Of a DNA stretch of 64,000 bases, positions 1,863-62,996 are shown piece after piece; position 1 is the stretch's first letter; each line of letters opens with the position of its first letter. The notes under the pieces were generated by a model that had not been told where the DNA came from, did no database searches, and worked only from the letters and a program-made list of their open reading frames with translations. The stretch comes from Erodium maritimum. Taxonomy: Eukaryota > Streptophyta > Magnoliopsida > Geraniales > Geraniaceae. A program made the translations under genes and the position numbers. The stretch spans positions 28,313,730-28,377,729 of the forward strand of contig OY997592.1 of assembly GCA_963921825.1 (NCBI GenBank), in the 5' to 3' direction.

Positions 1863-3448
1863 CCTACAAATCCAAATTCTCCAAATGATAATCGATGATA
1901 ACATAGACCAATGCTTCATAGCCCTGAGAGGTCCCAACTGATCGCAGACCAAAAACCAGTTTAGAATGGTCTCTGAAAAGACTGAACTGATTCCCCACCA
2001 CTATAAACATAAAATCCAGATCTCTGAAGTGAAAGAGCAGCCTAAAAATAAATGATCCAAATTTTCAGGTTCCTCACTGCAGAAGAGACACCAAATGTTC
2101 CATTATACAAACCTCTAGCTAGGAGGAAGCACTTTGTTGGCACCCCTTACATACACAATAACCAAGCAAAGGTTGCCACTTTGGGAGGGAGAATATGGGC
2201 CCAAAGTAAAACAGGTCAATCAAGTGAATTATCCCAAGAACCATCCAAGATCTCATACATTTTATGAACTGAAAAACCTCTATGATCAGGAACCCATTTA
2301 GCTATATCAATCCCTCCATTTAGCCGGGTGGAGTTAATTGCATCACATAGTAAGTGAAATTGATCCAATTCTCATCCCCTCAAATCCCTTCTGAAAGTAA
2401 TAATCCAATCCCCATCTGACCAAAAGGATGACACCAAACCAATTTTTTGTGTACTGAGGAGATAAAGTATATGGAAATGAAATTTAAGAGGGATATCCAG
2501 CAACCACTTGTCTTCCCAGAAATGGATCATATTCCCTAAGACCACCTTCCACTGAATTCCAACATCTCCAATAGCATTAGCAAATCTTGGACACATCAGT
2601 AATGATTCCACATGACTGATAAAGCTTTGTCTGTTCTGCAAGAAAAAATTAGAGGGATCCCAAGCTGCATAGTCCCATCCAAATTTAGCACACAACAATT
2701 GTTTCCAAAGAGAATCACTTTCCAATGCAAACCTCCACCACCATCTTGCAAGCAGGGCTTTGTTCATAATGTGTAAATTCTTTATCCCCAAACCCCCAAC
2801 TGACTTTGTCCTACAAATCAGGTTCCACCTAATCTTGTGTAATACTTTCTTTATAATGGATCCATTCCATAAGAATTTCCTTTACCATTTCTCCATATCC
2901 AAGATGACACTTTTTGGGGCTTTAAACAATGACATGTAGTAAAGAGGTAATGAGCTCAAAGAGGATTTAATCAGGGTTATCCTATCTCAAAAGGATCTTG
3001 ACTTTGCTTGCCATAAGCCCAATTTCTTTTTGAATTTGTCTATCACTGGCTCCCAAGTCTTCTTCCTTCTAGGATTAGCTCCCAGTTGAAATCCAAGGTA
3101 ATCAATTGGAATCTCCATAGCTGAGCATACCATGATGTGAGTGATCTCCAAAGTGGAAACAGAAGAAGCATTCAAAACTAGGACTTTGGACTTATGGAAG
3201 TTAATTTTCAACCCTGTGGCTTTTTGTAAACAGTTGAGTGTGTGCTTGAGATTTATAGCATGTTGAGTCCATGCCTCAATAAAAGTGAGGGTGTCATCTG
3301 CAAACTGAAGGTGATAAATCTCAGGCCCTTGATTATTGCACTTGATGCCTGAAAACAAACCATTCTGGATCCCTTTGACCATTAGTTGATGAAGTGTCTC
3401 AGCTAATCCTTTTTGCATTATAATACTTAAGAAGAAATTATAAGTCAT
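1863..3448 (-). pseudogene. LINE (L1 type) ORF2 fragment: RT palm/thumb and zf-RVT region
   Basis: This is the 3' part of a non-LTR reverse transcriptase. On the minus strand, 3448-2987 encodes the RT palm with the catalytic FADDT box followed by GLKINFHKSK. After one in-frame TGA the frame resumes with DRITLIKSSLSSLPLYYMS, one further stop, and GGLGIKNLHIMNKALLARWW (to 2372), typical of plant L1 thumb sequence. Beyond that, 2372-1863 reads with stops through PPKVATFAWL, the zf-RVT region. The 5' side ends abruptly near 3440 in AT-rich DNA, which fits a 5'-truncated insertion or a deletion. No endonuclease or ORF1 is attached. The few stops suggest moderate age. Confidence 0.85.
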
Positions 3449-7185: not shown

Positions 7186-9528
7186 AAAAATCAAAATGCT
7201 CTGAAGAACACCTTAGATTGCACACACCACCCTAACAAGGGTTTCATCATTTCCGCCGCCCCCTTTCACCGGCCTCCACCATCACCGGTCCACTACAGCC
7301 TGCACCTTCATCACAGCGTGCATCTTCCGCCCGCTCGCCACTTTTCAAGCCTCGGCCTCCATTCCCGATCCATTTTTATGGAGTCCATCCAACCCCAACT
7401 ACACCAGCCCGACGAAGAGAAGTCGACTCATCCTGGCTTCTTTCACGGCTTTGCCTTCCCCGCACCGGACGACACCCCACCCGTCGCCCGGACAACCAGC
7501 CCTCGGCTGCACAACATACTCGCCGTCTGAGGGCAGTCCGCTTTCGTCAAGCAAGGGTGCAGTTGTCCTCTACGAGCAACGTCCATCGGAGAAAGCAACA
7601 ACCCCGGAGTGGATGGCCCCTCGTCGTCCACATGTAGAGATTGGCCGCAATCTATCCCATCGACGCGACCAAATAGAGCCGCTGCAGAACCGCGACACCA
7701 CCCCGCCGGCCTCCTTATTGAGATATCGCCCCCCGGGCGTGCATGACTCAGATCCAGTGGGCCGGTCGTCGACCCTCATGATCTGCTCCTTGGCAGGGTG
7801 GGACCCCTTCGGAACGCATCACTCCGATGCCGGATTGGGAGGACGAAGACGAGGAACTGGTCGTTCCGATCGAGGCCGCCCCGGCGGCCAAAAATGGTAA
7901 ATATTTGTTTTCGCTGGCAGGACGGGTCGTCGGGGGGGGGGGGGGGACCCACAACCAGAATGCGGTTTGTGGATTGATGCTGCAGAAATGGAAGGTGGAC
8001 GGAATCCAGGTCGAATACCTATCGTCGGAGGTCATCAGGTTCCACTTCCCGTCCTAGGAACTTATGGAGAACATCCGCCACCGGGGGCCGTGGGGATTCA
8101 AAGGGTATCCGCTATTACTGGAGCCCCTCCGCCCTTACATGCAGGCCAACAACATTGTTTTCAACCATATGGAGATCGGGATTCGGGCTATGAACGTCCA
8201 GAGGGATGCCCGGACCCCAAGTGACCGTGACCTAATAGCCTCCTCCATGGGCACCCTGGGTAACCTCGGCCCCTTTACCGTTTATTAGGTGAGAGGACCA
8301 TTTCTTGTTGATGAGGGTCAGATTGGAGGTGAACCAGCCGTTAAGGAGACGTCTTCGTCTTCATTTCCCTGGTAACACCCAGTCCTCCCTGATTGAGCTG
8401 CAATATGAGAGGCTACCTGAGTTTTGTCGTCGGCGTGGTCGTTTGACACATCGACTACCTGGATGTACGGCTCACCTACCGAGGATTGGGCGGGCGGAGG
8501 ATAGTTATGATAATTCCATACAGGTACCGAGATAATTGGATGTGGATCGCCTGCTGAAGACGGTCTGGCAACGCCCGAGACACATCGAGGAAGCGGAAGT
8601 TGATGACCTCCAGACATGGCTCTCTCTGAACCCGATTGGTAGATCCAGGGAGGAGCTCACGGGGGGAAGCGAGTCCTTTGCAGCATCACCAGTCGCGAGA
8701 CCCTAGGAGATCTCCATAAGGGAGGACTATCACCCGAAGTCTGACAACATGACTAAGACTGCCCTGGGAAGGGCAGTCAACACATTGTAGGGAGGATCCC
8801 CGAGAGCATATGGGGGGCCACCGGGGTTCACAAAGCCTGACAACCTGGATAACGTCCACAATGCTGGGGGTGCTCTTTTCCCGGACAGATATGCAGGTGC
8901 CCTGGGTTCACAAGCTGAGAAGAAGAAAGATCCCATGGTTCTGTCCGGAAATGCATGTCCCATCAGATCGAAGGAAATAAAGACAAGCATGAAGACGAGT
9001 AGTGGGAAACTATACGCTAGAGGTCCAAGGACAAAGAAACTTCTGGAGTTTTCGGGCTCCATATCAAGAGAGTACAAGCCGCACAAGGTCGAGGAGGACC
9101 AGATGACCCAAGCAGAGGTAGGACAGCCTCCTATGCAGGAATGAGAAGACCCGGCGTGGGTGGGTCTGGCCGCTACTGGCCTATATCCACAGACCAGGGA
9201 CAACCAGTGCTGGAAGGTCTCGGGAAACCCGCATTCACAACTCTCTACCTTTGGTCGTTCTTTTATTATTTCGTTTTTTGCTCGAACTGTTTGCTTTATG
9301 TTTTGGTTTGGACAATTTTCCTTATGTCTCGTTGTTTTGAGACGTTGGTAAGGGGATGTCGTGATGTATTGTCTACGATAACAAGTAGCCTATTTCTATG
9401 GGTCCATGAGTGCTGGGCTTGCCACGGTCGGCCTAGACACATATCTGGAACTCAGAGCGGTTACGCTCTACACTGTATGGTTTTTTATTTGCATTAGTGC
9501 ACTTCCCCGGTTACCCGTTTCAAAAAAG
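7186..9528 (+). mobile_element. ORF1-only L1-type retroposon with TSD
   Basis: The 2.34-kb insertion is bounded by the 10-bp direct repeat AAGTGGTTAA (7176-7185 and 9529-9538) and ends in CGTTTCAAAAAAG, a short poly(A)-like tail. Inside, the plus strand carries a decayed L1 ORF1 (about 7440-9150) followed by roughly 370 bp of noncoding 3' end. No endonuclease or RT sequence is present between the ORF1 tail and the A-rich end. It therefore looks like an integrated copy of an RNA lacking ORF2, not a 5'-truncated L1, which would keep the 3' half of ORF2. Confidence 0.7.
7827..8535 (+). pseudogene. L1 ORF1 (DUF4283-like domain and CCHC knuckle), broken
   Basis: ORF1 proteins of plant L1s bind the element RNA. 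Frames in succession read PDWEDEDEELVVPIEAAP (7827 on), then GGLMLQKWKVDG-like sequence, then MENIRHRGPWGFKGYPLLLE (8064 on, typical of DUF4283), then LMRVRLEVNQPLRRR and YERLPEFCRRRGRLTHRLPG followed by C (to about 8468). The last matches the ORF1 zinc knuckle CX2CX4HX4C with the second Cys replaced by Arg. Frame changes and stops separate the blocks. A 15-base G run at 7932-7946 lies inside and may cause one of the frameshifts. Confidence 0.7.
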
Positions 9529-33064: not shown

Positions 33065-35117
33065 TTTTAATTAAAAGAGGTAGGTATTTCATTCAAATAT
33101 AAAAAAGAGTCGTTACATTGTATAAGGTCTTAAAAGGACTCTTCACAAAAAATTCTGAGACAAGTGAACCGTTACAAACGGTGTTTGAAAAACTATATAG
33201 GTAAACTAACAGTAGACTAAGACGAAACCGACGAAAACTGCTCAAGGTGTTGCCTAAACGTTGCATACTCTGTAGAGTGCGACCGAACCTATATTCATTA
33301 GTTTCAGAGGAAGGCATGGCTTTTACCAGGGACCCCTCCTAAGGCCAGTCCCTAGAGCCATGAATTTCTTTCATCCCTCCTGGCGGGGTTGCTTAACCCT
33401 CACCTGGTCCTCCCTAGGTTCTCCTACAGTGGCCCTCTTCTGGCCCGTCCTCCCTGCTGGGGCAAGCTCAAAACCAGGAGGTGCAGTCGATACCCTGGGC
33501 CTTCCCCGACATCTCCCCATCCTGGGAATTAGGAGGGATATGCGAGGTTACAATGACCCCGTTCCTCAAGATGGTGGGGTCCTAGGTGGGATAACCGAGG
33601 TCAACAAGCTAAAACCTAGGGGATGTTGTGTGCCGGTTCTCCTCAGTTTGTTGCATACTGCCTGGTCTTCAGATCTCGATGATACTCTAGCAACGATCTG
33701 TAAAAACGAGGTAATCCGGGTACCTCCCATGCACACACTTGCGGCCCGTGACCAATACGCCCACATTTCCCACAAAAGGATGGTAGTTCGGTGTAGGTGA
33801 GAGCGCACTGAACCGGGTCCTTGAATTCCTTGAAGCGCATAAGAAGATTCTGATGTAAGAGTTGATCCACCGAGTGCCAATAGCGTACCTTAATTTCCCC
33901 TCCCCAACATTGTCCCTCACCATCACAGACTGTATCCACATAAGACCCCTGCGCTGTTCCAATTGTCTCCCTGGTTTTCCTCAGCCATACCAGTGTTGGA
34001 ATGCCATGCGCATGGACCCACAGCTACAATTGGTTCATGATGGGCGGTCTCGGGCTAGACGGTAGAGGTCGTCAAGCAAGAGGGGATTCCCACCTAAACA
34101 CCATGGTTCGTTGTCCCAAACCCAAGATCGAGCCTCCGTCGATTCAAAGTAGAATTCGAATACCCATGGCTCGATATCCTTGATCACTAAGTCGTTCGCT
34201 GAATGTCCTCATGCGGTAGTGATGATCCGCAACCGGGGTTTCCTTTCTGGGGGGGGGGGGGTCACTAGGCCATCAGCTTCCTTAACATCCCAAACTACTG
34301 CCGAGCCAACATCCTTGGGTCCACTGCCCCATCCGACACTAGAATCTCCATGTCCTCCTTCTCCCAAATCAAGCAGATGGACATACTCTCTTGAAGGCTC
34401 TCCATCGGAGAGGCCTTCGAATTATGCGAGGCAAGAACGATCGAAGCGAGGACAACCTCTAGTGTTGTTGAAGTAGTGCCCTCCTAACGCAATAGAAACG
34501 CCGGAATAAGAGGGGTGGATGGGATTATCGGGATACGATCCATGTTTGGAAGTGGAAAAGACAATAGGAATGCCTTTTGTAGAAAAACGGAGTCGTGCCC
34601 TAGCAGGCCCACCGTTTTACTCGCCATAACAGTCCCATCTAATGGCTCAAAGCCGTCATAAAATGAAGGAGAAGGCTGTGCTTTGTTGCTCGCAGTCAAA
34701 GCCATTTGGGTTTTGGGTGGAAAGTCACGTTTGAGGGGCACTCGTGAAGGTTCCAGAGACGAGACTCTTGGGGAGAATTCTACGATTTCCACAGAGAGAT
34801 GCAACAACGCCAGAGAGGAATCCATTATCTGCGATGTCGCTATGGAAGTTCTCGGTTTCCATTTCCGACGCCCTTTTAAAGGGTTAGTCACCTTAGAATA
34901 GGGACGTGGTGGTGGGGCCTCTTTTTTGTCCTTCATTTGAGAGGCGAGCGACGAAGAGGTAGGTGCAGTGGCTATAAGGGCGGCAGATACAGGTGATATC
35001 GGCGCATGAATGGGTTGATTTTCCTCGAGAAGAGCACCGGATTGACGGGAGAAGATGTAGTGGATTGGGGAGCATATGGCTAGGGTTTCCTAGAGATCTT
35101 TTTAAGCCAATACGTTT
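33065..35117 (-). mobile_element. ORF1-only L1-type retroposon with TSD
   Basis: The 2.05-kb insertion on the minus strand has an imperfect target duplication GATCTTGRTTCTCYATT (33048-33064 and 35118-35134, two transitions). The T-rich/A-rich 3' end is at 33065-33110 and the 5' end near 35117 (AAACCCTAGCC shortly after). It contains an L1 ORF1 with an intact CCHC knuckle and then about 570 bp of 3' sequence. No endonuclease or RT is present. Confidence 0.7.
33643..34936 (-). pseudogene. L1 ORF1 with intact CCHC zinc knuckle, frameshifted
   Basis: N-terminal frame 34936-34484 (PLKGRRKWKPRTSIATSQI) and C-terminal frame 33939-33643, which reads RFKEFKDPVQCALTYTELPS followed by FCGKCGRIGHGPQVC. 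The latter is a complete CX2CX4HX4C knuckle at 33733-33774, as in ORF1 RNA-binding proteins of plant L1 elements. The middle (about 34480-33940) is frameshifted and includes a 13-base G run (34249-34261). Confidence 0.75.
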
Positions 35118-40281: not shown

Positions 40282-42350
40282 TATTTTTTTGATAAACTCG
40301 AAAATTTTATTAATAAGACCAACTCTAGAATAAGAGTCAGAATACCCTGATAAGTAATCAGGGTACAGGTCAGAAGACCGGAGAACACTTACACAAGACT
40401 TCTGCTGAGGGGAGAACTATAAGGACCAACCTTAACCCCAAAAACAGAAAAACCAAAAAAAAACTAAGTTGTCGCTTTCTGTCGAGCCTTATGAGACGCC
40501 ATCCACAACGTCGAAACGGGAGGCGCTGTCTTGATAGTGCGTTCCCGAGTCAAAGAACGAGCTCTCGACCGAGAAACAATAGTAAAGGTAGAAGATCGGC
40601 TCTGACGAGGTTGAAGTAGGGCATCCTTCCACGGACTACTCTCCTTCGCCACCATTGTCACTGAAACCTCCAAAGCGCCGATATCTGAAACCGAAACACT
40701 CGAGCCTATAGACACACCATTCACACACCGATCCATAATTAGGCCAGACACAGATCCCGCTTGTTCAGCCGAACTCGTTGGGTCAGAAACCACTGAATCT
40801 AAACCCACAGTCTGAACATTGGCTTCTGTCAAGCCTAGTGCCTGAGTTTCAGAACCTGAACGCAAGCTTGTTTCCGGAATATCATAAACCGAACAAGTCT
40901 CAATCGCACCATGCGTTGCTTGGCCTCCACGTAATGCCTCAAAAGACGCCAGATCCGTGCGATCTTCTCTGCAATCCGTCTCAGGCAATCCTAATGGATA
41001 TAACTCCTGCCGAATATGCATACGAATCTCCTCAATCAGCCAATCAGACACCATCGTCGATCTCCGACCACCGGTGTACAAGAGCTCCAACAGCTTCCCG
41101 TCCTCCAACTTGGCCTTCTTCACCTGAGAAGACGATGAAACCGAACCTCCACTAGAAGATTGTAATTCCCTGACAGAACTGACCATGCTCTGTTTTGAAG
41201 CTGAACACCCTTTAAACGGAAACGACACCTATTCCGGACGGGCTAGAGCCACGAAGAGGATGTATCCATTGTATTTGAAGCCGTTGTAAACCTCGATGAC
41301 CTTCTGAGCAACAGAAGGCGAGAGGAAATCCACGAAACCAAAAAAACATCCCTTCCTATTCGGTCTTTTAATCGCAATGGCCGATTGAATTTCTCCAAAT
41401 TCTCCAAAGAAATTCCGAATCCATTCGTCTGTGGATCCAAAAGGTATATTATACACGAAGATTTTCGTACCTGAACTTCTTGTAGAAATAGCTTTCGTCC
41501 CCATACAAATATCATTGGAAAAATACTTCCTCGCCGGCAACGCTATAACAGTCTCCAAAGCTGTTATCGAAACCGGGTCTGAAATGGAAGGACCCCCCTC
41601 CACAACTTGAACCACTTGCCAATGTTCGTTGTTCACAACCGGTGATATCGTGTATGTCTTAAGAATTAAATGGCTACATAATTCCTCAGGCCTAGCGGTG
41701 AGCCCATCTTCTCGTTCCACCGGCCCATACACAACACCTGCCTCAACCGCACAAATATCGCGATTTGCCAAATCTGCCTCAACCGCATCACGATTTGCCA
41801 AATCTGCTTGAGCTGCGCAGATCGCGGCTGGATCCACCAAATCAGTAATCAGAGATTCCGGCCGAGATTCAAATTTTGAAATCCCAACGCGACGAACCTG
41901 TTCCTGCACTTTTGATCGGGAATTAACGAGCGATCCTCCACCGGACAACGCCGGCAAACCATCGATCGCCGTTTCCGCCATCCCCCTACCGTTTTTCTCA
42001 GGTCGAAACAACTTTTTGTTCTTCCTCTTCCTTCTCGGCACAAGAGCAGCAAAAACCGGCTCTATTGAGAGAGGTTTACCAGAACCTTTCTTCGGCTGGC
42101 CAATGCCCATTTAATGAACTGGTCGAGATAACCGTTTCCGTGTAGGCTTCAAACTCAGCTTGCCCTTACGAATGATTGACGTAGCCGAACAATCATCACG
42201 CCCTCGCTTCTGACTAGCTTTACCGATCCTTCCCTTCAATTTTATTAATGATTTCTATACAAGGAAATCAATACTGAACAGAAAGATGAAAATGAGAGAA
42301 GAGGAGGAGGCATTCTCTCTTTTCGTCCTATTTGCAGAAGATTTTCATTG
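40282..42350 (-). mobile_element. RRM-type ORF1-only L1 retroposon with TSD
   Basis: The 2069-bp minus-strand insertion has the imperfect 13-bp target duplication AGATCYGYGACTT (40269-40281 and 42351-42363; both mismatches are C/T transitions). It ends TTATTAATAAAATTTTCGAG, then TTTATC and an A run (rc of 40282-40320). It holds one long ORF1 (42110-40464, broken by one UAG), a 240-bp 5' part and a 180-bp 3' part. There is no endonuclease or RT. RRM-containing ORF1 is known from a plant L1 subclade (BNR-type LINEs). Confidence 0.78.
40464..42110 (-). pseudogene. RRM-type L1 ORF1 protein, one in-frame UAG
   Basis: Probable RNA-binding ORF1 protein. The frame from ATG at 42110 runs 293 codons, meets TAG at 41231-41229, and continues in the same frame for 254 codons to 40464, giving about 548 codons. 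It begins with a basic N-terminus (VPRRKRKNKKLFRPEK). The RRM is at about residues 207-290: RNP2 KIFVYNIP, then EWIRNFFGEFGEIQSAIAIK, RNP1 KGCFFGFVDF, and GYILFVALARPE directly before the UAG. The C-terminal part is Ser-rich without a known domain. An upstream in-frame segment (about 42235-42114, SIIRKGKLSLKPTRKRLSR) ends in TAA just before the ATG. It is unusually well preserved for a relic. Confidence 0.8.
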
Positions 42351-42363
42351 AGATCTGTGACTT

Positions 42364-43850
42364 GGTTAAGGAGCACCCTGAGAAGGTGACTCCAATTTTT
42401 CAGTGGGCGCATCCAACATCAGATATTGGGAGAGTTAGGATTATAAAGATCTGTGACCGGGCTAACAAGGTCTATGAGGTGTGGGGGACGGAAGATGGGG
42501 TATATCGACCAACTCTCCCTTGAAACCCTATTGGGTAGTGGAGACCACCTCCAACCAATCCGAGTTGGTAGTGGAACTACGCCGACTTCACATACGAACC
42601 ACTACCGAATAGGAAGCAGAAGGAACTTTGAAAGAAATAAGTGGGATTGAGCCCAACGAAACCGAAGGGATAAAGACAAAGGGCCGATAGAATGTCCTCG
42701 AGATCCATATCTGCACGAGTCGCCTAAAACGAGCTCTCGAGTTATTCGGCACAACCACCCCCATCATCTAGGAGAACGACGAGTGGGAAGGGTACTATAT
42801 CCAAGCGAGGGAAACCTTAATACCCAATTAGAGCAACCTTAAGTAGTCCTTATTGGGCGGAGCATCCCGTTTTTCTATGAAAGTAGAACCTACCAACGAG
42901 CGATCAAATAATCACCTTTGTAGCCTTTAACGAGACATTCCAACGGGTTCGTATCATACCCAAGTGAAGCAGACCCAGTTTAGCACCAAAGTGCAATAAT
43001 ATATCCAGCTTATTAGAATTTTATCCCCGCTTCTTATCATAATTTATGTTTATTAGAAATAATTAGTTGCTTCAGTGTTTAGAGTGGATACCCTCATTCT
43101 CTGTCGATAATTTTTATTTTTTCAAGAAATATTCACCATTGATATCATTTTTAGGCCTTGAGAAAATAAAAATGTTGCCACAAAAACGAGGTTGATTGGA
43201 GGTCAAACGAAGCGGGAATGAGTGAAATAAGATTAGAGTTGAAAAGTTGAAAAGCCTTACCACATGCCAGATGGCATGCTCCGGACCAGCCATGTGGCGA
43301 GCTTATCTGCTTCCAGATTCCATGTGTCGCACTCCAGACACATCTCGTGAGCTCACACTCCACAAGCGCATGATCGGCTAACGTACTCTTTGACTGTTTC
43401 CAGCCGCCAGTTTGCATGCTTTGACTTCCCCTACATCCTTTGTATTTTTGACCGTGAGATCTTGAGGCTTCCTACACTGGTTGTACTATAGAACCATGCT
43501 CCTGCCCACACTGAATCACTCCAATAAACTAAGCACCTCTCCCTTTTTCGTCTGTCCTCTTCTACGGCTGACATCTAGCGCCCCTTTCAGCCTTTCTCCC
43601 TCTTATGCGTGGTCAGGCAGTAGCACAACCTTCATGCCTCAATTTATTTTGTGCAACCGTAATTTTTTTACAGAATCTTCCTCATTTTTATAATTTTAGG
43701 TGGAAGTATAGAATTTTTTTTTTTTCTGGGGGGGGGGGACATCTTTTTCATTTAATTTTTCACATAGAATGCTATTTTATAAGGAGGTGTGAGCTCCATT
43801 TTAGTGGGAGAACCCATTTTTTTCAGAGCTTTTTCTTTGTGTTTCTCCTT
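42364..43850. other. Unassigned sequence between retroposon and Athila relic
   Basis: 42332-42523 contains a plus-strand frame reading DLVKEHPEKVTPIFQWAHPT that crosses the RRM retroposon junction and that I cannot place. 42530-43700 has no recognisable gene. 43714-43738 is T12-CT-G11, an odd homopolymer pair. From about 43850 the sequence begins to resemble the Athila LTR. Confidence 0.4.
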
Positions 43851-44800
43851 TTGGATTTGTAATGGACAAGATTTATTTTTATCCTAATGAGAAACCATTT
43901 TGTCAGAGCTTCCTTTTTGCTACATTCAAGATCTTGTCTTTGAAGGATTTTCTAGAGTATCAAGGGGGATATTGAAGATAAAGGAAAAGCAAGACTTAGA
44001 CAATTAATTCGGTGAGTGTATCTCAACTTTTCATCTTGATTATGAAATATATTGCTTATTTCTCCTCATATTAGTATTCCTTCACCATGAAAAACTAAAC
44101 CCCCATAATCTAGAGTTATGGGGTAATAGAGTAGTGATTTCCATGAATTGAATGTCCAAATTGTTGTGATTGTTGATTTGGGTTAGGGTTTATGATTGAG
44201 TTGTGCTTAATTATTTATCTCATGTGTAGGCTACGTAATGGATTTCAATTAGGATCTAATACTTGAAAAGGGAGGATTCTAATTAGTTTAAAATCAATCA
44301 TAGGTTGAATTTAAATCCTAACTAGAACTAGTTGGATTAATACAATTGCAATATCAATAGATTTTTTTTATCGAAAGCTAGAAGTTGTCTAAAATCTTAT
44401 TTATTTGAGTCTTCCTACATATAGAGCCTAAAGAACTATGTGGTTAGATTCCATTAGGGTCCGAAACATTCGAACGAAGTTAGGACTAAAATTGAGCTAT
44501 CTCGTTGCCCTTAAAATAAGTTAACATCACAATGATTGAACGTGTTTAAGATTATGAAATGAACTCTATGAATCCATTGTCCTAAATTATCTCATCATCT
44601 GATTCAAACATCTATTTAAATTTGCTGGTCTTTAAATTTCTTTTGCACTTTATATTACAAATACCAAAACCATTTTCTGATTGAAATAGCTTTACAAAAA
44701 ACTTTAAATAGGGACTACTTGCCTATTGCTCCTTAGGGTGCAATATTCCGAACTTGAAATTCAACTTACTACTTGACTACCAGTACACTTATCGTGTTCC

Positions 44801-46555
44801 ATTTTTTGACTGAGGGAATCAACATGTCTCACTTCAAGGCTCAACCAAATCTATCCCACGTTGGCCGGAGGTCCGCTCACGGTGGCCTTGACGAGTTTCT
44901 GGTTTTTTGCTCCGGTTTACTGTCGCTTTACAGGAAGTTTCAGGCCATCGTTCCGGCCAAGAAACGGCCTAAGGTCAGGCCGGTTGGAAGAGCGCAGACG
45001 GAGGTCCGTCGCCAGGGCAAGCATCGCACGAGGGCTGCTTCAACGGGAAGGCAGAGTCCGGTGTCCAGTGAGGTTGTCACTGCTGAAAAACCAACGGAAG
45101 GGAAGATGGCCGGAGGCACGGGAGGTTCAGTTGATCGTCGATCTCCGACTCATTTTGAACTGAGTGATACTGAGCTCTACGTCCGAAACTTACCTTATCC
45201 TGTCTCGGATGAGTGGTTTCGGGAAAAGATGTCCATTTTTGGCGAGTTGGTTTCATTCTCTCTGCTGAAGCGAGCAAACAAAACAGGGTGTTTCTTCGGT
45301 TTTGTTCGCTTTTCGACGCCTGTGACTGCGCCAGGGCTTTGGAGAGCTTAAACGAGACACTGGTGAATGGCCATATATTGTTTGTGGCGTATTCCCGACG
45401 ACGTTTGGACGGCACGACGACAAAACCAGACGGGTTCGAGAAATAGAGCACGAGCTCTGTTTCGCGTGATGCTTTGGTTTCCAGCCCCGAGGATCTCGCT
45501 CGGTCAGATGGTGCAGGTTTGGAGTGTTCTCAAGGGGTAGTCGAGCCCCATCCGGTCACACCCTCTCCGGTGATAGTCCCGACGACGTCGGTGCAGCAGG
45601 CTTCCGGTGAGCTTCCGCGATCTGCTCCAAATATTGATCCCTTGATTCCAGGGATTTCTTTGGATCACGGTATTTCGAATTCGACTCATGGATTGGGAAA
45701 CTCCATTGAATATGATTTGATCATGCCGCGATTCAAGGATGTGATTCCCTCTTCGTCTGCGATCCGAGATTGCGGCTTATTTGGGCACGAGGGTGGGCTT
45801 CGGGAAGTGTTGGGCCAAGAACCATGCTTGTGTACTTGGCCTGTTTCACTTAAACCGGGTCTGGATCATGGGTCTGCCTCAACTGGCCCAACAGAAAAGG
45901 TCCATCTGCTGGCCCGAGAGGACCCAAAATTGGCTACGATTTTTAGACGAATGGCATTTGACTTGGACCCAGCAGCGATGGGTTCGGGTCAAGACGATCC
46001 GTTTCGAGGCGTTGACCCGTTGGTGGAGACTGGTTTTCAAGGAAGCCCGAGGAAGGAAGCCTTGCAAAAACCGATCTCAGAGGTTGAGCCGAAACGACGT
46101 GGTCGACCGAAGAAGGGTCAGGCGAAGGTGATTGCACAACCAATGGTAGTGTATCAGACTAGATCCAGGACTTCGGCGGATAAAGGGGATAAAACGGGTT
46201 GTTTCTTGGTGAATGTAGCCAAAAAAGATAGCTCGGGCAACTGGAGTTACAGTTCGAAGGTTGGTAGAAAAGCTGTTGATTTTTGTTCCTTAGCTCTCGA
46301 TCAGGATTCTGAGGAACGAGAACCTTCTTCTGCTCCAGTTCTAACCCCTGTTCCGGTATCTAACCGGTTTACTTGTTTGAACCCGAACAGGAAATAGGCA
46401 AGGTGTTTTGTTTACGTCTTGTTTTGTTCTGGTTTTGTTTTCTGCTCTTTGTAGCTGTATTGGTTCAAAGAAAAGGTCTTTTCGGATCTTTTCTTGCTTT
46501 GTTCTATATCTTTATAGAACAATTGCTTAATAAAATTCTTTATCTTATAAAAAAA
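44801..46555 (+). mobile_element. RRM-type ORF1-only L1 retroposon with TSD and poly(A)
   Basis: The 1755-bp insertion in the Athila LTR has the target duplication ACACTTATCGTGTYCC (44785-44800 and 46556-46571, one mismatch) and a 3' end of TTAATAAAATTC, TTTATCTT and an A8 run. The empty site is confirmed by the other Athila LTR, which has an uninterrupted GTACGCTTGCCGTGTCC at 16689-16705. It contains ORF1 (44824-46397) and a 150-bp 3' end only. There is no endonuclease or RT. Confidence 0.83.
44824..46397 (+). pseudogene. RRM-type L1 ORF1 protein, one frameshift and one UAG
   Basis: Probable RNA-binding ORF1 protein. It starts MSHFKAQPNLSHVGRRS only 23 bases after the element start. The N-terminus is basic (AKKRPKVRPVGRAQTEVRRQ). 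The RRM has RNP2 ELYVRNLPYPVSDEWFREKM and RNP1 KTGCFFGFVRFS. A one-base frameshift near 45318 moves the RRM end into the next frame (DCARALESLNETLVNGHILF, then VAYSRRR). After PDGFEK a TAG (45444-45446) interrupts this frame, which then stays open to 46397 with the basic motif EPKRRGRPKKGQAK and the end FTCLNPNRK. Total length would be about 520 codons. It is related to the protein at 40464-42110 only in the RRM and layout. Confidence 0.8.
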
Positions 46556-61334: not shown

Positions 61335-62996
61335 TTTTTTTATCAGCAATGCATATATAAAAACATCGATTCTATGAAATAAAGAATACGATGGGTTGAA
61401 CTGAAACAAGAAGGACCATTCCTCTCAGAACCTCATGAAGCCCCACACTAGGGAAGATCAACAACCACAATGAAAGGGTACGCAGACCCTAAAGCAAGCA
61501 ACCACATGAAGCCCCCCACCGGGTAAGACCAACAACCACAATGAATGGGTACGCAGACCCTGTAGCAAACAACCACAAACAAAGAATGGGTACGCAGACC
61601 CTAAAGCTAACAACTGCAAAATGAAAGGGTCTAGCACCCGAATTTGACAAGCATGAATCCTAGAAATGAAAAAGGTCTAAGCATTCTAACCAGACAGGGC
61701 GAGGAAAAAGATCAGACCTCAAAGGACATCCCATCATACCAGATACATTAGACCGGATAAAACGCTCGGTCCTTCCTAAGTTTTGGCCAACATCGAGACA
61801 CTCAAAGGAGAGGACCGATATTTCTACCGAGCAATAATACAGCCTAAAGAACAGTCAGGAGATACCTTGAAGCACAAGAGGTTGTCGCGAAAAGGCAAGT
61901 GACCCCTACGATGCCGAGAGCTTTACCAACGAGCAGTAGATAAAGGAGAGCCGCAAGAATCCCAACAACAAAATCCGCCCAGGAGCAACCAAAACTCTAC
62001 CAATCATGCCCCAACACCACAACAAAACTGGAGAAAGATGGAGAACAGACATGCGCCAATCTTCACCAAAAGATGGAGAAAGACCTCCCACTCGAGTCTG
62101 AAACAGCACCAACTCCCGAAGCTGAGGAGAAACTGAATCAGCACACAACAGCAGCAACCACCAACAACACCAACACGAGCGCTCGAAAAGCGGAGAGCCA
62201 GCAAGAAGAAAAAAATTCTTGCCCTGGGTCGACTCATACCCGAAATTGCACCCAACCCGGCCTGAACCAGGCTCGGACCCGGCCCGGCCCGAACCTAGCC
62301 CCAACCCGACCCGAATCAAGCCCTAGCCTGACCCGAATCCATCCCAAGCCAAGCCCGAGCCCACACCGACCAAGCCTAAGACACAGACAGATCCGGCCCA
62401 CCACCTGCCAACGCAGCCCGAACCCACCACAGACAGGCCCAAGATCACGTCCCGGCCTGGCCCACCACTCCTACCATCCCACCACGCCCTGCCAGCCCAC
62501 CACGCCCTGCCAACCAAACGGAAAACGGGAGGAGAACGCCGATCACCGATGACGACTTCGACGGAGCGACACGAGCCCAGATCCGCGCCAATCAGAGGCC
62601 GGAGAGGCCAGAGAAAGCCGTCCCACACTGGAGAAAAGAGAGAACGCCGGAGAACACTACGCCGAGGATGGTCGGAGACGGTGGAAATCTCCGGGAACAA
62701 CAAGGAGATTAGAAGAGGACTCAAAGGAAGCAGATCTGGGAAGAACACCAATCCCACACCAGATCTAAAGGTCGAGCACAACCCAACTCCAACGCACCAA
62801 AGAAAAAAAGGGGGGAAGAAGAAAAGGGTAGAAAAAGAAGAAGCTGAGGGTAGAGAGAAGCCTCCGCCGGTAATAGGCGCGGTTGGGGCCACGACCGGTC
62901 ACTGGCGGAGAGGCGAGGAGGGGCGGCAGGGAGAAAAAGAGGTTTAGGGTTATCGCTTTAGCAACCTCAGTTGAGAGAGAAAAAGTATCCCTATTA
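61335..62996 (-). mobile_element. Poly(A) retroposon of unknown type with TSD
   Basis: The 1662-bp minus-strand insertion has the perfect 11-bp duplication TGATGTTGATT (61324-61334 and 62997-63007) and a 3' A run (rc of T at 61333-61340). The 5' end has AACCCTAAACC and CT-rich sequence (rc of about 62880-62960). The minus-strand frames 62892-62323 and 62319-61906 are Gly/Arg/Val-rich low-complexity (RAWWAGRAWWDGRSGGPGRD) and match no family I know. No RT or RNA-binding domain. It may be the 5' untranslated region plus 3' end of an L1, or a processed transcript. Confidence 0.7.
61476..61601. repeat. Repeated hairpin motif in the retroposon 3' part
   Basis: GGGTACGCAGACCC occurs at 61476-61489, 61547-61560 and 61588-61601, each inside a partly repeated CAACCACAATGAA-type unit of 71 and 41 bp. 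The ends GGGT and ACCC can pair. Confidence 0.8.

Follow-up and report, generated by a model that had tools for sequence, protein, structure and literature searches.

In mammals, HAL1 elements are described as non-autonomous derivatives of the L1 long interspersed nuclear element (LINE) that encode only the protein of the first open reading frame (ORF1) and that have several origins (PMC5753468). In Drosophila, HeT-A, an element without long terminal repeats (non-LTR) and without pol, is thought to use the enzyme of another element (PMC5537684), and maize ZmSINE2 and ZmSINE3, short interspersed nuclear elements (SINEs), have a 3' end in common with an L1-clade plant LINE, stem-loops being a feature of plant LINEs (PMC3747384). 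A 64,000-nt stretch of DNA from the plant Erodium maritimum (assembly GCA_963921825.1, contig OY997592.1, forward strand, positions 28,313,730 to 28,377,729; hereafter the window, in whose coordinates features are given) contains five LINE-like insertions, A–E, each lying where an earlier note, made from the letters alone, had placed it. Very probably, the insertions represent several families of non-autonomous plant LINEs, four of which (A–D) encode only an ORF1 protein in the manner of HAL1 and borrow the ORF2 protein of complete L1s.

Among the ORF1 types of plant L1s are the RNA recognition motif (RRM) and DUF4283/zf-CCHC_4 types, and a 3' stem-loop belongs to ZmSINE2/3; the RRM-ORF1 L1s of this genome are presumably a BNR-like subclade. 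Like HAL1, A–D have an ORF1, lack ORF2, and are multicopy with shared structure, and D (C over its last 33 nt only) has the 3' end of an L1 from the same genome. They differ from HAL1 in their plant host, in an ORF1 made up of RRM_1 alone or of DUF4283 plus zf-CCHC_4 rather than one of mammalian L1 descent, in a 3' hairpin common to the clade of the proposed helper, and in that no close full-length parent was found here; these families work like HAL1 but are not HAL1. As with HeT-A, the elements are without ORF2 and are proposed to borrow an enzyme, but HeT-A adds to chromosome ends, whereas A–D go into internal positions and have target duplications; the median distance to a contig end is 24 Mb for the 100 D junctions listed. 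The likeness to ZmSINE2/3 is that of a non-autonomous partner with a LINE-type 3' end; the difference is that SINEs have no ORF, whereas the elements described here carry an ORF1 that is open in some copies and under selection. With the RRM-type plant L1s, D has in common an RRM, a basic C-terminal tail, and a homologous 3' untranslated region (UTR) and hairpin, but those L1s possess ORF2 and a middle ORF1 domain, and D and C have neither, no ORF2 with endonuclease and reverse transcriptase appearing in the ORF2-probe search. Among the titles it listed, a literature search whose scope stopped short of repeat databases and most subscription papers had no ORF1-only LINE family in plants, and priority is unproven.

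Families with a Shared ORF1-to-3'-End Junction

Searches covered the E. maritimum assembly (763 Mb in 40 contigs, nine of them longer than 60 Mb). All copy counts are lower bounds because the best 40 candidates alone were scored for each DNA search. ORF2 absence was scored by tblastn with two L1 ORF2 proteins as probes, including that of H1, an element introduced below. Target duplications of the window elements were given P values from 1000 random window pairs, and those of fetched D and C loci were each compared with 60 shuffles. Each of the five insertions is part of a multicopy family within its own genome, and none matches either ORF2 probe. The view that A–D carry an L1-type ORF1 without endonuclease or reverse transcriptase is borne out, domain matches being to ORF1 and none to the ORF2 probes, and Pfam and tblastn together show two CCHC-type (A and B) and two RRM-type (C and D) ORF1s. 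Each of the four represents a family with a common ORF1-to-3'-end structure, and individual target duplications are present at many of the copies that could be tested. Of the duplications reported in the earlier note, those of A, B, D, and E stand (P 0.002–0.003), and C's own is weak (P 0.12).

The clearest family is that of element D (44801..46555, plus strand), delimited by its target duplication and by one-piece family copies. The duplication, ACACTTATCGTGTTCC / ACACTTATCGTGTCCC, is 13 nt exact or 16 nt with one mismatch (P within the range above). At least 13 other copies span query positions ≤63 to 1755 in one piece (best 40 of 1799 candidates). ORF1 of D (44824..46397, plus strand) has an RRM_1 match in Pfam (E 1.3e-7); its frame is broken between 45351 and 45447 in the window and is open in L033 (536 codons) and L035 (543 codons), two fetched copies free of stops and gaps across the codons compared. 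A genome pattern search with the 36-mer that joins the end of ORF1 to the 3' UTR (46371..46406, plus strand) gave 135 matches at ≤3 mismatches, spread over all nine large contigs, and none for the reversed control; the window's own copy differs from the 36-mer at one position. The 3' UTR that follows (46398..46555, plus strand; hairpin at ~46496–46526) is homologous to the 3' UTRs of ORF2-bearing RRM L1s. ORF2 stands between ORF1 and the 3' end in none of 12 fetched D loci, the window copy included. Seven of the 12 (L029–L031, L033, and L038–L040) have target duplications beyond all 60 shuffles, L034 and L035 have weaker ones, and the same test found none at L032, which has a broken 3' end, L036, or L037. 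At L034, RRM-L1 ORF2 residues 9–438 precede the D copy and residues 438–481 lie behind it, with ~150 nt extra on the 5' side, an arrangement that looks like a nested insertion of D into an RRM-L1 ORF2. At the 3' end of L033, the final 270 nt of the D copy and the following flank are present twice in tandem.

Element C (40282..42350, minus strand), delimited by one-piece family copies, has an ORF1 (40464..42110, minus strand; open reading frame and Pfam evidence) with one in-frame stop at 41229–41231 and an RRM at ~41262–41462 (RRM_1, E 5e-12); its 3' end (40286..40340, minus strand) comprises a hairpin (~40319–40340) and then TTATTAATAAAATTTTCGAGTTTATC. At least three other copies (L002–L004) span ≥97% of the query in one piece (best 40 of 499 candidates), and the RRM-to-3'-end layout is also common to further C subfamilies. 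The duplication of C itself is 11 identical columns of 13. Among seven C loci that reach the 5' end region, five (L002–L005 and L027) have duplications that none of 60 shuffles equals, and the same test found none at L001 or L028; most C-clade loci from L009 to L026 fell outside it because their alignments begin close to the RRM, short of the 5' end. ORF2 is absent between ORF1 and the 3' end at all 28 C loci, which include the window copy and occupy 27 places because L007 lies within L028; position, strand, or tails of their own mark the ORF2 pieces near L003, L006, L010, L014, and L036 as separate elements. At L028 (G000:C1:131192300-131201900), the ORF1 of the C copy is interrupted by ~2.7 kb that matches neither ORF2 probe.

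The CCHC-type elements are more degraded. Element A (7186..9528, plus strand; delimited by its duplication and one-piece family copies) is flanked by AAAAAAGTGGTTAA / AAAGAAGTGGTTAA (13 of 14 columns identical, P 0.002), and at least 16 other copies, 80–88% identical, run unbroken from query position ≤62 to ≥2338 of 2343 (best 40 of 3215 candidates); L083 and L084 of this family have clear target duplications of their own by eye. The DUF4283 and CCHC part of its ORF1 (7797..8520, plus strand) was located by tblastn with the L084 ORF1 (79–87%), in which Pfam recognizes DUF4283 (2.2e-8) and zf-CCHC_4 (7.5e-12). Element B (33065..35117, minus strand; delimited in the same way) is flanked by GATCTTGATTCTCTATT / GATCTTGGTTCTCCATT (15 of 17 columns identical, P 0.003). 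At least 14 others span nearly all of its 3' 1436 nt in one piece at 72–82% (best 40 of 2872 candidates), and L085 and L086 are 81% identical to B across nearly the entire element; by eye, a 7-nt target duplication is seen at L085 and none at L086. The DUF4283/CCHC-like part of its ORF1 (33706..34202, minus strand) matches the ORF1s of L058, a CCHC L1 (8e-11), and of L084 (2e-9) in tblastn. The proposal that these are replicating families thus holds for all four, by the common junction in D and by one-piece alignment in A, B, and C; shared junctions mark replicating non-autonomous families and therefore not random deletions.

Selection on ORF1 and Its Origin

The ORF1 of D was under protein-level purifying selection while the family spread. 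In crude parsimony counts over 12 copies and 528 codons, with L035 as reference, the nonsynonymous/synonymous ratio is 0.44 (0.35–0.53) on internal branches and 0.82 (0.68–1.00) on terminal ones; in the two shifted frames, internal branches give 1.30 and 1.08 and terminal branches 0.70 and 0.84. The evidence is the contrast between branches and not the distance from 1, because the wrong-frame terminal ratios are also below 1. In L036 the reading frame through the RRM is shifted, and L035 as reference gave a somewhat stronger result than L036. In the C clade the ratio is 0.49 (0.39–0.61) on internal and 0.71 (0.57–0.88) on terminal branches, from 10 of 27 loci, 17 having been dropped for covering less than half of the reference L021; L008 had been left out beforehand. 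This pattern is the one expected if source copies needed the ORF1 protein while dead copies drift.

The RRMs of D (L035) and C are 42% identical, and both are 31–38% identical to those of ORF2-bearing RRM L1s. In an RRM tree of 29 rows rooted on three L1s, from which rows with a stop or shorter than 62 aa were dropped, the 11 D rows form one clade (support 0.96) and the 15 C rows, among which the window copy appears twice, form another (support 0.88). A middle ORF1 domain seen in four ORF2-bearing RRM L1s is missing from D and C. The basic C-terminal tail of D is 40–45% identical to that of the RRM L1s over 82 aa; in C, which has the RRM, homology of the C-terminal tail was not detected. A single ancient ORF1-only ancestor of D and C is possible, but the L1 ORF1s sampled are few and the domain is short.

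3' Ends and Candidate Helpers

The idea that 3' ends would lead to the helper proved right for D, for which there are ORF2-bearing L1s with a D-type 3' end, and has led to no confirmed helper for A, B, or E. Sixteen 3' ends of zf-RVT L1s were read, and then 20 ends from 150 scored places with RRM-clade ORF2. One of the 16, at L053, matched D; the element there, H1, combines an ORF2 that is open over 1060 aa but broken in its N-terminal part with an RRM ORF1 that has the middle domain and the basic tail and is now frame-shifted. Of the 20 RRM-L1 ends, 18 match the D end over 69–163 nt at 70–81%. The homology begins 46–170 nt past the ORF2 stop, and where the alignment reaches its start the D 3' UTR is ~30–90 nt shorter there than the UTRs that follow ORF2.

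D keeps both the 3' UTR and the terminal hairpin of ORF2-bearing RRM L1s, this common end including, besides the hairpin, a motif that closely resembles TTAATAAAATYTTYAGCTTATC. Across 21 aligned tails, 90.8% of hairpin pair cells are standard, compared with 33–48% in slid controls, and one pair shows a compensatory change, reading CG throughout the 11 L1 rows and UA throughout the 10 D rows. An RRM-clade L1 as the helper of D is well supported by these similarities.

In C the hairpin sits at the same place. Its last 33 nt are 91% identical to the end of an ORF2-bearing L1 in L036, and 34 nt are 85% identical to that of one in L010, the ORF2s of these two L1s being 37–45% identical to that of H1. 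Since this terminal stretch is common to two ORF2-bearing L1s, their related, RRM-like subclade is the likely helper of C. These L1 ends lie on the minus strand in both loci, at ~619–1466 (L036) and ~1367–2437 (L010) of the reverse complement. A search for a complete L1 through the 146-nt 3' end of C returned, of the best 40, eight fetched copies without a recognizable upstream ORF2, five with an ORF1 C-terminus and three with the 3' UTR alone; none of the eight has an ORF2-probe match in the 700–1000 nt read. The E tail scores 14.0 against RRM tails, slightly above shuffles (12.2), and 13.3 against CCHC tails.

A Satellite Target Site and 5' Leaders

A tandem satellite of ~170 bp holds five of the 12 D loci and one RRM-L1 end. 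LINE tails are joined to TAGTATGNC of a palindrome in this satellite at 70 places (control, 0). At this palindromic site, CATACTATAGTATG, all 70 joins fall at the same nucleotide; the satellite insertions noted are those of L035, L036, and L038–L040 together with the 70 places, and L038 and L070 have an insertion at a second satellite site, AACGAACTCGG. All but one of the 70 joins lie within 8 Mb of a contig end, a zone that takes in 19% of the combined length of the nine large contigs. The site is used by three of the 100 D junctions listed and by two of 40 3' UTR matches of RRM-L1-like type, and a shared nick site fits a common ORF2 endonuclease of D and RRM L1s.

Many copies have, between the target duplication and the shared start, a leader of ~10–60 nt that cannot be aligned between copies; such non-homologous 5' leaders are seen in L030, L031, L033, L035, and L040 and in L003, L005, and L027. 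The L033 leader contains a 38-nt satellite piece although the L033 flanks are not satellite, resembling a 5' transduction, and this piece suggests that transcription started in the flank of the source copy. The 49-nt leader of L031 has itself as its sole genome match at ≤3 mismatches.

Proposed Mechanism and Alternative Explanations

In the proposed mechanism, an ORF1-only RNA would be transcribed and then translated, and the ORF1 protein would coat the RNA that encodes it. A complete L1, of the RRM clade for D and probably of another RRM-like subclade for C, would supply the ORF2 protein that recognizes the 3' hairpin and A-rich end, nicks DNA, and, acting in trans, copies the RNA by target-primed reverse transcription.

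Several points weigh against this account. Movement in trans by an L1 ORF2 protein is a proposal drawn from the 3' hairpin and the shared satellite site; the hairpin covariation is a single change between L1 and D, and the two satellite-site ends that resemble L1s are known from 3' UTR matches and may be truncated. None of the 16 zf-RVT L1 3' ends matched A, B, C, or E, and the A and B tails are not above shuffles against RRM tails, so that tail comparison produced no helper for either. Over 45 nt the C tail scores 19.4 against RRM tails, hardly higher than the 17.9 against CCHC tails. The elements sampled include no L1 that combines ORF2 with D's own ORF1, and the progenitor is distant or unsampled because the RRMs of D and C are so far from those of the RRM L1s. 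The selection test has a neutral baseline other than 1, terminal ratios falling below 1 in wrong frames too, and copy numbers are lower bounds.

The alternative that survives best, though improbable, is repeated splicing, in which a complete L1 spliced the end of its ORF1 to its 3' UTR and the RNA was reinserted again and again without any self-sustaining lineage. A splice junction could equally account for one junction in 135 copies, and the shorter start of the D 3' UTR also fits. No ORF2-bearing L1 with a D-type ORF1 was met, however; the four ORF2-bearing RRM-L1 ORF1s have the additional middle domain and distant RRMs, the D and C copies make up subfamilies with coding constraint on internal branches, and the eight further C-type 3' ends are also without recognizable ORF2. 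If the copies were retrocopies of a domesticated host gene that had arisen from an L1 ORF1, an open, selected ORF1 and A-rich tails would likewise be expected, but the 3' UTR of D is an L1 3' UTR with its hairpin, and constraint extends over the internal branches of a copy tree with many subfamilies, making this origin still less probable. That A–D are ordinary dead L1s, each with an independent internal deletion, is scarcely credible and was rejected: full-length relatives with the D-type 3' end, which the earlier note had named as part of what would count against its own proposal, do exist among the RRM L1s, but the copies share one junction at 135 places in D and align in one piece in all four families, rather than carrying a separate deletion apiece. 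Segmental or satellite duplication in place of retrotransposition, which the five D loci inside satellite arrays (able to duplicate an insertion) might suggest, is equally hard to credit given flanks and target duplications that differ between copies, A-rich tails, 5'-truncated C-type copies, and D junctions on every large contig.

The HAL1-like interpretation is thus supported overall by the shared junctions and by ORF2-bearing L1s with a D-type 3' end. A wider picture has somewhat better than even standing: plants may harbor long-lived, diversified ORF1-only LINE lineages with RRM and CCHC branches that have passed through many subfamily generations without ORF2, their ORF1 under selection, parasitizing complete L1s and sharing with them the 3' hairpin and a nick-site specificity for a fixed site of a subtelomeric satellite; a single ancient element with ORF1 alone may be ancestral to both D and C. 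If so, the half-L1 lifestyle would have an independent origin outside mammals, in two classes of ORF1, and nature would have uncoupled ORF1 from ORF2. Where an element lacks ORF2 yet its ORF1 is under selection, the implication is that the ORF1 protein acts mainly on its own RNA and that the ORF2 protein can act in trans, and the old question of cis or trans action by ORF1 and ORF2 could be tested in a plant that offers candidate helpers, 3' hairpins, and a fixed target site. In plant genome annotation, such copies may pass for truncated LINEs or for RRM or DUF4283 genes.

Element E and a Neighboring ORF2 Fragment

Element E (61335..62996, minus strand), delimited by its duplication and its relatives, is flanked by TGATGTTGATT (11 nt exact, P 0.003). 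As the earlier note had described it, the insertion has no recognizable ORF1: tblastn with the ORF1 probes gave no match, and neither E nor its relative L082 has a Pfam match under E 0.1 in the frames tried. Its family is large and broken into pieces (616 first-look candidates), with a hairpin and an A-rich end, and ~313 nt present in relatives such as L082 are missing from E at one point. The same window also contains, at ~2108..3403/3451 on the minus strand, a degraded fragment of an ORF2 from the RRM L1 clade, the proposed helper clade, found by tblastn with the H1 ORF2 (41.9% over 437 columns, 2.6e-104) and matched by RVT_1 at 1.9e-8.

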